Assembly: GCF_900111025.1 (NCBI RefSeq)
Contig: NZ_FOFN01000002.1
Location: forward strand, 248,001 to 312,000
Direction: 5' to 3'
Source of the DNA: Hyunsoonleella jejuensis
GTDB taxonomy: Bacteria; Bacteroidota; Bacteroidia; Flavobacteriales; Flavobacteriaceae
DNA: 64,000 bases
Positions 1 through 23,038 of the stretch are shown here, in pieces. Each line of letters starts with the position of its first letter. Within the stretch, counting starts at the first letter, position 1. The notes beneath the pieces are model-generated. The model saw only the letters and a list, made by a program, of their open reading frames with translations, had not been told where the DNA came from and searched no databases. The position numbers were made by a program, and so were the translations under genes.

Positions 1-148
1 TGCCCCTCCTTAATCCTCCCCAAGTGGGGAGGAAATACTCAAACTCTTTATAACCTATAATACCTTTTATTTTTTAGTTAAAAAAACATCTAATCTCTAT
101 TCCACAAAAGTATTCCCTTTCCTTTGGAAAGGGTTAGGGAAAGGCTTT
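1..148. repeat. Short element with inverted hairpin ends (MITE-like), same end family as the recG insertion
   Basis: The left end (2-32) is a pyrimidine-rich lead followed by a hairpin, CCTCCCC (15-21) and GGGGAGG (26-32). The right end (115-145) is the inverted counterpart: hairpin CCCTTTCC (115-122) and GGAAAGGG (126-133) followed by the complementary purine tract up to 145. The stems differ in sequence but stay paired. Between them lie about 80 bases of AT-rich DNA with no reading frame. The two ends of the insertion in recG (21743-21773, 22151-22180) have the same design. A non-autonomous derivative is an inference; the left boundary may lie outside the window. Confidence 0.6.
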
Positions 149-20500: not shown

Positions 20501-23038
20501 ATGTCTGTTAATCTACAAACTCCCATAGACTATTTAAAAGGTGTTGGTCCTAATCGTGCCGATTTGCTACGGAAGGAGCTAAATATTCATACCTATCAGG
20601 ATTTGCTAAATCTATTTCCAAATAGATATATTGACAGAACACGGTTTTACAAAATAAATGAAATTCAGCAAAACAGTGCCGAAATACAGGTTGTTGGTAA
20701 AATCACTGGCTTTAAGGAGGTAGCTCAAAAACGTGGAAAACGTTTGGTGGCAACATTTCAAGACGACACAGGAACGATGGAATTGGTGTGGTTTAGAGGT
20801 CAAAAATGGATTAGGGAAAGTTTAAAACTAAATACGCCTTATGTCATATTTGGTAAAACAAATTGGTTTAGTGGGCGCTTTAGTATGCCACATCCAGATA
20901 TTGAAACCATTGATGAGCATAAAAAAGGGTTGAGCTCAGGCATACAACCTATTTACCCTTCAACAGAGAAATTAAGCAATAAAGGCATTAGCAATCGTGT
21001 AGTTAGTAAAATTGTACAACAGCTATTTTTAGAAACTAAAGGACGATTTGTAGAAACCCTATCGACATCCATACTTTCAGAACTAAAGTTGATCAATAAA
21101 TCTGAAGCCTTATTAAATATACATTTCCCAAAAACACAAGAGTTACTGGCAAAAGCACAATATAGATTGAAGTTTGAAGAGCTGTTCTATATTCAATTGC
21201 AGCTAATCTTGAAAAACTTAATTCACAAGTCAAAAATTAAAGGTTTTCAGTTTGAAACAGTTGGCGATTATTTCAACTCATTTTTTAAAGACCATTTGCC
21301 ATTTGAATTAACCAATGCGCAAAAACGTGTTTTAAAAGAAATTAGAGCCGACTTAGGAAGTAATGCCCAAATGAACCGATTGTTACAAGGCGATGTTGGT
21401 TCTGGAAAAACTATCGTGGCCTTTATGTCGATGCTAATGGCGCTTGATAACGGTTACCAAGCCTGTTTAATGGCACCTACTGAAATTTTAGCAACACAAC
21501 ATTTTACTGGACTAGAAGAATGGTGTAGATTATTGAATATAAGCATAAAACTGTTAACAGGATCCACTAAAACGTCGGTTAGAAAAGAAATCCATGCAAA
21601 CCTAGAAAACGGACAATTACAGATTTTAGTAGGCACCCACGCTCTATTAGAAGACAAAGTAAAATTCGCAAATTTAGGACTTGCAATAATAGACGAACAA
21701 CATCGCTTCGGAGTCAAACAAAGAAGTAAGTTGTGGAAAAAGAGCCCTCCTCAGTCCTCCCAAAGGGAGGAAGCCAAAGCGGTACGCATGAAATATATGA
21801 CTGCGCGTCCTTCTGTTTATAAACTGCTTAAAGAATTACAAATAGAAAATAAAAAACATTCCACTGAAGCCGAACGTGCGTTATGGGAATCTTTACGTGG
21901 TAAAAAGTTAGACCATAAGTTTCGAAGACAGCACATCATTGATGAGTTTATCGTTGATTTCATTTGTATTGAAAAAAACCTAATCATTGAAATTGATGGT
22001 GGTTATCATACCACCATTGAACAAAAAGAAGCCGACGAACTGCGTACCAAAATTTTAAACGAAATTGGATTCAAAGTCATACGATTCACAAACAAACAAG
22101 TATTAGGAGATTTAGATAACGTTTTAAATTATATAGGGAAAGAGTTAAAAAGCCTCCCCAGTGGGGAGGTTGGAGGGGCTTTCATCCCACCACATATATT
22201 GGTTATGACCGCTACTCCTATACCGCGGACATTGGCCATGTCCGTTTATGGCGATTTAGACATTTCGGTGATTGATGAATTGCCACCGGGGAGAAAATCT
22301 ATTAAAACCGTACATCGCTATGATTCTAATCGATTAAATGTATTCAGATTTATTAGAGATGAAATTGCAAAAGGTCGACAAATTTACATTGTATATCCGT
22401 TGATTCAAGAAAGCGAAGCTCTGGATTATAAAGATTTAATGGACGGTTATGCCAGTATAGAGCGTGATTTTCCAAAACCAGAATACCAAATCTCCATTAT
22501 TCATGGTAAAATGAAACCAGCCGATAAAGACTATGAAATGCAACGTTTCATAAAGGGTGAAACCCACATTATGGTAGCTACTACAGTAATTGAAGTTGGT
22601 GTGAACGTGCCTAATGCTTCGGTAATGATTATTGAAAGTGCAGAACGTTTTGGCTTATCGCAGTTACATCAATTACGCGGACGTGTGGGGCGTGGTGCTG
22701 AACAGAGTTACTGTATATTAATGACAAGTCATAAATTGAGTAACGATAGCAAGACACGTTTAGAAACCATGGTGCGTACCAATGATGGTTTTGAAGTAGC
22801 CGATGTGGACTTAAAGTTACGAGGGCCTGGTGACATTATGGGCACGCAACAAAGTGGTGTTCTTAATTTAAGAATAGCTGATATTGTTAAGGATAAAGCT
22901 ATTTTACAGCAGGCAAGGTTTTATGCAAAAAAGGTGTTGACTTCCGATCCTTCGCTGAAAAGTGCTGAGCATAAAGTGATATTAAATACCTATGCACAAT
23001 TGGCTAAGTATAAGAATATTTGGAATTATATAAGTTAG
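20501..23038 (+). CDS. recG: ATP-dependent DNA helicase RecG with in-frame DUF559 nuclease insertion
   Basis: RecG remodels stalled forks and recombination intermediates. All helicase motifs are present: wedge/OB domain about 60-150, Walker A GDVGSGKT, motif Ia APTEILATQH, DEQH box in IIDEQHRFGV (about 396-405), motif III TATPIPRT, motif V TTVIEVGVNVPNAS and motif VI QLRGRVGRG. The protein is 845 residues, whereas RecG is normally about 700. The excess is one block of about 148 residues (415-562) between motif II and motif III, which is a complete DUF559 domain bounded by hairpin repeats (see 21743-22186). Without it the sequence would join LWKK to PPHILVMTATPIPR, as I expect for a normal RecG. 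Whether the product is active is not known. Confidence 0.93.
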   Translation: MSVNLQTPIDYLKGVGPNRADLLRKELNIHTYQDLLNLFPNRYIDRTRFYKINEIQQNSAEIQVVGKITGFKEVAQKRGKRLVATFQDDTGTMELVWFRGQKWIRESLKLNTPYVIFGKTNWFSGRFSMPHPDIETIDEHKKGLSSGIQPIYPSTEKLSNKGISNRVVSKIVQQLFLETKGRFVETLSTSILSELKLINKSEALLNIHFPKTQELLAKAQYRLKFEELFYIQLQLILKNLIHKSKIKGFQFETVGDYFNSFFKDHLPFELTNAQKRVLKEIRADLGSNAQMNRLLQGDVGSGKTIVAFMSMLMALDNGYQACLMAPTEILATQHFTGLEEWCRLLNISIKLLTGSTKTSVRKEIHANLENGQLQILVGTHALLEDKVKFANLGLAIIDEQHRFGVKQRSKLWKKSPPQSSQREEAKAVRMKYMTARPSVYKLLKELQIENKKHSTEAERALWESLRGKKLDHKFRRQHIIDEFIVDFICIEKNLIIEIDGGYHTTIEQKEADELRTKILNEIGFKVIRFTNKQVLGDLDNVLNYIGKELKSLPSGEVGGAFIPPHILVMTATPIPRTLAMSVYGDLDISVIDELPPGRKSIKTVHRYDSNRLNVFRFIRDEIAKGRQIYIVYPLIQESEALDYKDLMDGYASIERDFPKPEYQISIIHGKMKPADKDYEMQRFIKGETHIMVATTVIEVGVNVPNASVMIIESAERFGLSQLHQLRGRVGRGAEQSYCILMTSHKLSNDSKTRLETMVRTNDGFEVADVDLKLRGPGDIMGTQQSGVLNLRIADIVKDKAILQQARFYAKKVLTSDPSLKSAEHKVILNTYAQLAKYKNIWNYIS
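21743..22186 (+). mobile_element. DUF559 nuclease element inserted in frame in recG
   Basis: About 444 bases, a multiple of three, interrupt recG. The left end (21743-21773) has hairpin TCCTCCC/GGGAGGA; the right end (22151-22180) is its inverted partner with hairpin CCTCCCC (22153-22159)/GGGGAGG (22163-22169). Between them an internal ATG (21788) opens a DUF559 protein of the Vsr-like PD-(D/E)XK nuclease group: HSTEAERALW, KFRRQHIIDEFIVDF, then IIEIDGGYH and GFKVIRFTN. The likely catalytic residues are Asp486, Glu497 and Asp499 in RecG numbering. There are no intein splice residues or group I/II intron features. The exact boundaries are uncertain by a few bases. Confidence 0.8.

Follow-up and report, generated by a model that had tools for sequence, protein, structure and literature searches.

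The recG gene of Hyunsoonleella jejuensis raises the question of how a complete nuclease domain comes to be translated inside a helicase, and what kind of genetic element such a domain might belong to. The gene lies in the stretch of DNA analyzed here (the window, 64,000 nucleotides in full), where it forms a single open frame of 845 codons, as an earlier sequence-only reading of the window had claimed. The relevant features are the following.

20501..23038, plus strand: recG, a single open frame of 845 codons with the element inside
21743..22180, plus strand: the element, AGCCC...GGGGCT, 438 bp (codons 415-560), between the DEQH box and the TAT motif
21743..21771, plus strand: left end, tag AGCCCTCCTCAG and hairpin TCCTCCC-AAA-GGGAGGA (21755-21771), translated SPPQSSQRE
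21851..22147, plus strand: DUF559 (PF04480) nuclease domain, amino acids 451-549, with E458, D486, E497, D499, H503 and D512; PDB matches 3hrl and 3r3p
22153..22180, plus strand: right end, hairpin CCTCCCC-AGT-GGGGAGG (22153-22169), TT and tag GGAGGGGCT, translated within SLPSGEVGGA and inverted relative to the left end
22181..22231, plus strand: host sequence directly 3' of the element (FIPPHILVMTATPIPRT), conserved from PPH onward; putative recognition DNA

The RecG domains recognized by Pfam were the wedge, DEAD, Helicase_C and RecG C-terminal domains, and the full DUF559 domain that had been claimed was located between the two helicase halves, DEAD and Helicase_C (amino acids 451-549, E 3e-30, 104.7 bits against a curated cut-off of 20.6). 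The insert begins with AGCCCTCC at 21743 and ends with GGAGGGGCT at 22180, its ends having been placed by analogy with two element copies in the MetH gene of another genome (G248). The block described earlier, 148 codons from 21743 to 22186, had an exact start, but its end lay 6 bp too far, the element being 146 codons long; with the corrected ends, its removal leaves a RecG of 699 residues rather than about 697. The element is translated throughout (SPPQSSQREEA...SLPSGEVGGA). Its placement in a helicase loop between motifs was borne out, but it is not a pure insertion, a short variable loop of the host having been swapped out. Host proteins presumably remain functional, the insert being placed in a variable loop, a view based on intact host frames and on the single full RecG among the matches listed for the own genome (four RecG matches there). 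Structure prediction with AlphaFold gave a poor model for the full-length RecG (pLDDT 57, pTM 0.30), which was left unused.

Both ends of the element are composed of a C-rich tag and a 7-bp hairpin and are imperfect inverted repeats of each other, so that the element carries terminal inverted repeats, as transposons and insertion sequences do. Both hairpins stand in the recG frame and are translated, in line with the initial description. A first repeat search at the element gave no match; in a looser search the inverted ends were among six weak pairs, and the 7-bp hairpins were missed, being shorter than the length limit. Near the start of the window (2-148, unstranded) there is also an intergenic hairpin pair in the style of the element ends, in inverted order with tags outward and without an ORF, possibly a non-autonomous (REPIN-like) relative of the element. 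In all families, the purine strand of tag and stem contains four G runs, which could, as an idea only, form a G-quadruplex.

Within the nuclease domain, E458, D486, E497, D499, H503 and D512 were invariant in 35 of 35 diverse DUF559 copies, and we take these six to be the catalytic residues; Asp486, Glu497 and Asp499 had been picked out correctly beforehand, and the other three join them. D486, E497, D499, H503 and D512 were all kept in 104 of 110 domains and in 30 of 34 RecG copies. The DUF559 profile matched PDB entries 3hrl (E 6.7e-33) and 3r3p_A, labelled 'Mobile intron protein' (E 7e-07), the latter presumably I-Bth0305I, an EDxHD homing endonuclease. Judging from its active-site residue pattern, which agrees with that type, the element nuclease is Vsr-like and EDxHD-type. 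The internal ATG noted at 21788 is present, but a conserved start of the nuclease's own finds no support across hosts: an ATG preceded the domain core in 27 of 34 RecG copies and in 2 of 13 MetH copies (10 of the 13 with GTG and TTG). Carriage of the element by phages was set aside, as a viral scan with RecG-type copies gave one distant match (27% identity). The own genome also contains a weak partial DUF559-like match in a 228-aa frame (L002, G000:C2:804987-805115, profile positions 66-108), and four other genomes of the genus have akin partial matches; these perhaps represent a different nuclease-like family.

The occupancy of the site was analyzed in related genomes. RecG matches were detected in 59 of 60 genomes (own included), and the whole insert in five of them (G000, G008, G003, G017 and G006). 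Among the 30 best RecG loci (own included), five were full, 21 were cleanly empty (linker of at most 8 residues) and four carried short scars, which supplies the empty site that the sequence-only reading had proposed to look for. Two of the scars are single hairpins, the right end only in G002 and the left end only in G004; in the other two (G011 and G020) no hairpin was seen by eye. A contig scan with five RecG-type element proteins, which detects nothing beyond close relatives and takes no account of empty sites, gave 26 confirmed loci elsewhere, all 26 of them in recG at the same site. Occupied recG genes were found in Hyunsoonleella flava, Jejuia, Tamlana, Algibacter, Aestuariivivens, Aestuariibaculum and Wocania, as well as in Flavivirga, Flavobacterium difficile, Tenacibaculum, Aequorivita, Croceitalea, Polaribacter filamentus and some MAGs. 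An assembly error at the element, named beforehand as an outcome that would overturn the reading, is excluded, and an assembly or annotation artefact of any kind is vanishingly improbable, because the same architecture recurs in independent assemblies, at 26 of 26 loci. A recent insertion private to this genome was likewise rejected, the same recG site being occupied in many genera.

On a RecG tree of 55 rows (insert removed; L130 and five RecGs identical to others left out), the presence of the element required 13 changes, at least 10 of them forced by starred branches, compared with a mean of 18.5 for shuffled labels (6 of 500 shuffles were as low as 13); presence is thus somewhat clustered. 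A single host clade of occupied RecGs was rejected (AU p 7e-46), as was one clade of the four occupied RecGs of the window's genus (p 3e-7); for L005 and L006 as a host clade, a pair named after the trees were seen, p was 0.019. The other outcome that had been named in advance as damaging, the same block at the same site without repeats, was found in part: the block is widespread in Flavobacteriaceae RecGs, but the repeats are present and the occupancy is patchy. For these two reasons, a fixed ancient RecG domain is not the simplest reading. Patchy occupancy of the same site together with empty alleles is the distribution expected of a homing element.

The sequence-only reading had also suggested a search for DUF559 ORFs with similar hairpins, and related in-frame units were indeed found in many unrelated genes. 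In total, DUF559 (E<=1e-15) was detected in 86 of 249 Flavobacteriaceae genomes, with 137 matches, of which 45 lay in open frames of at least 346 aa. These long frames comprised 19 of LeuRS, eight of HemD, seven of RecG, seven insertions in MetH (in six genomes) and one each of IleRS, HisD, a type ISP enzyme and a PLP-dependent enzyme. In the window's genus, LeuRS carried the element in two of 12 genomes (G002 and G004). One of the 19 LeuRS with the element (L106, G146) is split over two frames in an incomplete assembly, which represents either a real break or a sequencing error. In a phylum sample, from which 40 stretches (one a filler) were retrieved for reading, DUF559 occurred in at least 147 of 345 genomes, and many of the matches listed, from other families, lay in frames 800-1480 aa long. 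Hosts were named by Pfam for 29 proteins in all, which included HsdR, HsdM, type ISP, Eco57I-type and other DNA methylases, two UvrD helicases, methylmalonyl-CoA mutase, a GATase_5 amidotransferase, HemF, an M23 peptidase, HisD, HemD and a histidine-biosynthesis protein read as HisF; in one protein (L282) Pfam found DUF559 and its relative MTES_1575 only. For LeuRS, MetH, IleRS and every RecG except that of the window, the host was assigned from sequence motifs. Frames were read from stop to stop, and the N-terminal cases (HemD, HisF-like, HemF and the PLP enzyme) are open, predicted fusions. In eight proteins (L111, L077, L085, L087, L096, L118, L120 and L091), DUF559 is N-terminal to HemD in one open frame, seven of these assignments (all but L091) resting on Pfam; the nucleases beside HemD form a clade of their own.

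The element family thus occurs as in-frame palindromic inserts in unrelated genes, in the manner of the Rickettsia palindromic elements. The insertions in RecG, IleRS and the first sites of LeuRS and MetH lie directly upstream of a conserved motif; the two LeuRS sites precede TTRPDT and MPGWAGSSW. A single MetH gene of G248 carries two copies, whose alignment runs for 418 positions, from AGCCCCCC to GGGGGGCT, and stops there. At the second MetH site the element was absent in the seven relatives where the site pattern matched, one of them with another repeat there. Twelve IleRS genes of one genus comprised three full alleles, eight with a clean loop and one (L218) with a different palindrome in the loop. 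The host loop was overwritten in both genes (NADLIDKGTT in IleRS, about EVGHEKFI at MetH site 2), and no target-site duplication was seen by eye at recG, MetH site 2 or IleRS. Since the loop is lost and no such duplication was seen, clean insertion with target-site duplication was rejected, and entry does not correspond to textbook transposition. The different in-frame repeats of L218 (G286 IleRS) and L185 (G026 MetH site 2) encode peptides like GSRQPELVPGSHDE and RHAKLDSASQ, which indicates that these loops collect several kinds of repeat.

The nucleases cluster by host site. In a tree of 90 DUF559 domains, a short domain for which 20 forks stayed open, all 31 RecG rows formed one clade (97/81) with the IleRS row as sister, all seven MetH rows formed another (100/98), and LeuRS fell into several groups (5 changes); overall, the host labels required 10 changes, versus a shuffled mean of 50.9. 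Rates were calculated according to Nei-Gojobori with an own script. Among 31 RecG copies, element pN was correlated with host pN (r 0.80, median ratio 1.1), and, since the two divergences mostly run together, most RecG copies look vertically inherited. Of 45 pairs reported, four were saturated, and in 40 of the 41 others the element dN/dS was 0.018-0.16. The nuclease is under purifying selection, and from these low values most RecG element copies appear old and constrained. Such values are very low for a selfish gene and, like the parallel divergences and the partial clustering on the RecG tree, weigh against the explanation that we prefer, that of a homing element.

The exceptional pair, L144/L150 of Aequorivita (element dN/dS 0.44, dS 0.06), differed at 14 of 441 positions in the element versus 215 of 2040 in the host (p 1.5e-07), and its flanks, where co-conversion would show, at 5 of 123 positions on the left and 23 of 132 on the right. 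These values point to an element-centered transfer, probably with vertical descent in most other pairs. The other nine Aequorivita pairs showed no gap between element and host. Weaker signals were obtained for L148 (Tenacibaculum) against L141 and L142 (p about 1e-4) and L147 (p 0.005), and for L141/L142, L005/L006 and L004/L006 (p 0.004-0.015), while L098/L140 went in the opposite direction (p 0.03); among the 22 chosen pairs, the transfer was clear only in L144/L150 and absent in most.

The same figures bear on a possible domestication of the nuclease. In that history, RecG would have gained the domain at an early date, and other enzymes independently of it; the domain would then have taken on work for the host, for instance the processing of DNA next to the helicase, and would now pass on vertically while often being lost. 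The low dN/dS values, the correlation of pN with that of the host and the retention of five motif residues in 30 of 34 RecG copies would all fit such a history. Nevertheless, like units occur in LeuRS, MetH, IleRS, HemF, HemD and others, where DNA processing would be senseless, full and clean empty alleles are found within one genus, the right hairpin is under synonymous constraint, and one pair (L144/L150) shows element-centered transfer, and we consider domestication unlikely.

The constraint on the ends was apparent throughout the family. In a count restricted to frames of at least 300 aa and domains of at least 85 aa, 94 of 110 distinct in-frame DUF559 domains had at least one end with a strict GC hairpin (left 79, right 74, both 59), compared with 17 of 436 control windows taken at those loci; the sequences are related and the counts not independent, but hairpins flank these domains more than expected by chance. 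The 16 copies with a strict hairpin at neither end were counted against a homing element. In RecG, 22 of 34 copies had both strict hairpins, and 24 of 34 the left one. The stems vary by paired changes (CCTCCC/GGGAGG, CCCTTCCC/GGGAAGGG, CCCCTCC/GGAGGGG). When 27 of 31 RecG-type sequences were compared (four near-copies left out), third codon positions of the right end had a mean identity of 0.77 over 8 codons versus 0.50-0.57 elsewhere, a value equalled in 20 of 100000 random sets and 0 of 520 windows; the left end reached 0.81, over 5 codons only. The first glycine of the right end was encoded by GGG in 24 of the 24 copies keeping it. The right hairpin is therefore under constraint at the DNA level, as expected if the ends have a role as DNA. 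Domains that had lost motif residues were without a strict hairpin in 3 of 6 cases, versus 13 of 104 for the others (Fisher p 0.04), which is suggestive, in few cases, of a joint loss of both.

Hairpins of this kind also occur on their own. A recG-type pattern gave 35 matches in 10 of 38 genomes, some of them the recG ends, whereas the reversed control gave none, and the own genome contained three further copies, all intergenic and near a gene end or start. A GC hairpin lay within about 350 bp of 19 of 20 free-standing DUF559 rows, a count made without a control. Together with the single hairpins at the recG sites of G002 and G004, these observations would suit a model in which only the REP-like hairpin is mobile, spread through repair or some unrelated enzyme, with the DUF559 gene as a passenger between hairpins or a controller. 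It is distinctly unlikely, in our judgment, given that nuclease and ends are common to the two MetH copies as one unit, that the nuclease clades track the host site and that the nuclease residues are kept in 104 of 110 domains. Three free-standing DUF559 genes (L040, L045 and L084) lie amid several copies of other hairpin families, e.g., TCCCTCCTTGTTAGGAGGGA and TCCCCTCTAGGAAGAGGGGA, and the MetH of L280 (G042, another family) has a DUF559 with two hairpin-like repeats per side, resembling a nested or composite element.

From the above, we infer homing, and the recG element is probably a homing-endonuclease-like mobile element with REP-like hairpin ends that persists as a translated loop insertion. 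The earlier claim of a mobile element tolerated through its open host frame accords with the full, empty and scar alleles, the many genes, the two MetH copies and the constrained right hairpin. The nuclease, produced either within the fusion or by internal initiation, would cut an empty allele near the DNA of the conserved motif beside the loop, and repair off an occupied copy would then copy the element in and overwrite the loop. Rare ectopic copying may found new sites, and the in-frame ends without a stop would permit residence in essential genes without splicing. Copies may decay, leave a hairpin as a scar or disappear altogether, and the vacated site could fill again. The wider proposal has, in our estimate, an even chance of being correct, namely that of a Bacteroidota-wide class of autonomous selfish elements, a third way of residing in coding DNA besides introns and inteins, in which an EDxHD-type homing nuclease with REP-like ends and without a stop codon forms an additional translated loop in essential proteins, homes beside conserved motifs and decays to hairpin-encoded peptides.

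In the open-access literature, at the level of titles and the starts of abstracts (subscription journals and most preprints being outside this scope), no such element was found described. Inteins are in-frame, mobile, nuclease-bearing inserts beside conserved motifs of essential proteins, and the element resembles them in its frame, its nuclease and its location. Unlike inteins, it must stay in a tolerant loop and lacks splicing residues, none being present at the junctions K414/S415 and A560/F561, as the comparison drawn in the sequence-only reading had held; an intein was rejected by eye on the ends ...VGGA/FIPPH, which have no C-terminal HN and no following C, S or T. REP sequences, with their RAYT, and REPINs are short tagged hairpins that occur in inverted pairs and as dispersed solo copies, features shared by the element ends. 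The nuclease is presumably PD-(D/E)XK-like, in contrast to the Y1 transposase of RAYT, and the tag is AGCCC-like rather than the GTAG or CGTC mentioned for REP in an excerpt of PMC3733652.

The EDxHD homing endonucleases, of which I-Bth0305I is named, are described in part of PMC3943268 as mostly of phage origin, in introns or free-standing. The element shares with them a related catalytic domain (3r3p, E 7e-07) and site-specific, patchy occupancy, and differs by lying in frame in chromosomal genes, with hairpin ends and no recognized intron or intein; cleavage and homing are predicted for it. Rickettsia palindromic elements, according to passages of PMC10969869 and PMC3733652, are palindromic repeats translated in frame in unrelated protein genes, as is the element. 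There they measure about 150 bp and encode a conserved short peptide, whereas the element has 438 bp, encodes a nuclease domain and occupies identical sites across many species. In fungi, LAGLIDADG genes in frame with mitochondrial rps3 (PMC7902536, in part) likewise join sequence of homing-endonuclease type to a host protein gene, but they are mitochondrial, of LAGLIDADG type, confined in that account to one gene and themselves intron-borne. The Caulobacter DUF559 protein VsrA is needed for the DNA damage response in cells lacking ScmA; it shares the domain, but is a free-standing gene with a proposed role in mismatch repair (excerpt of PMC12907096).

Homing genes are thought, in the portion of PMC3943268 consulted, to require introns or inteins for harmless entry into essential coding sequence. 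In contrast, the nuclease element lies unspliced in RecG of this genome and in LeuRS, MetH and IleRS of its relatives, which suggests that selfish genes can inhabit coding sequence with neither an intron nor an intein. If the element homes, this would explain why many enzymes of Bacteroidota carry an additional nuclease domain in a patchy fashion, a domain of unknown function would gain a role, and REP-like palindromes would be tied to a new nuclease partner. The full, empty and scar alleles are at hand for studying how selfish DNA settles in proteins.
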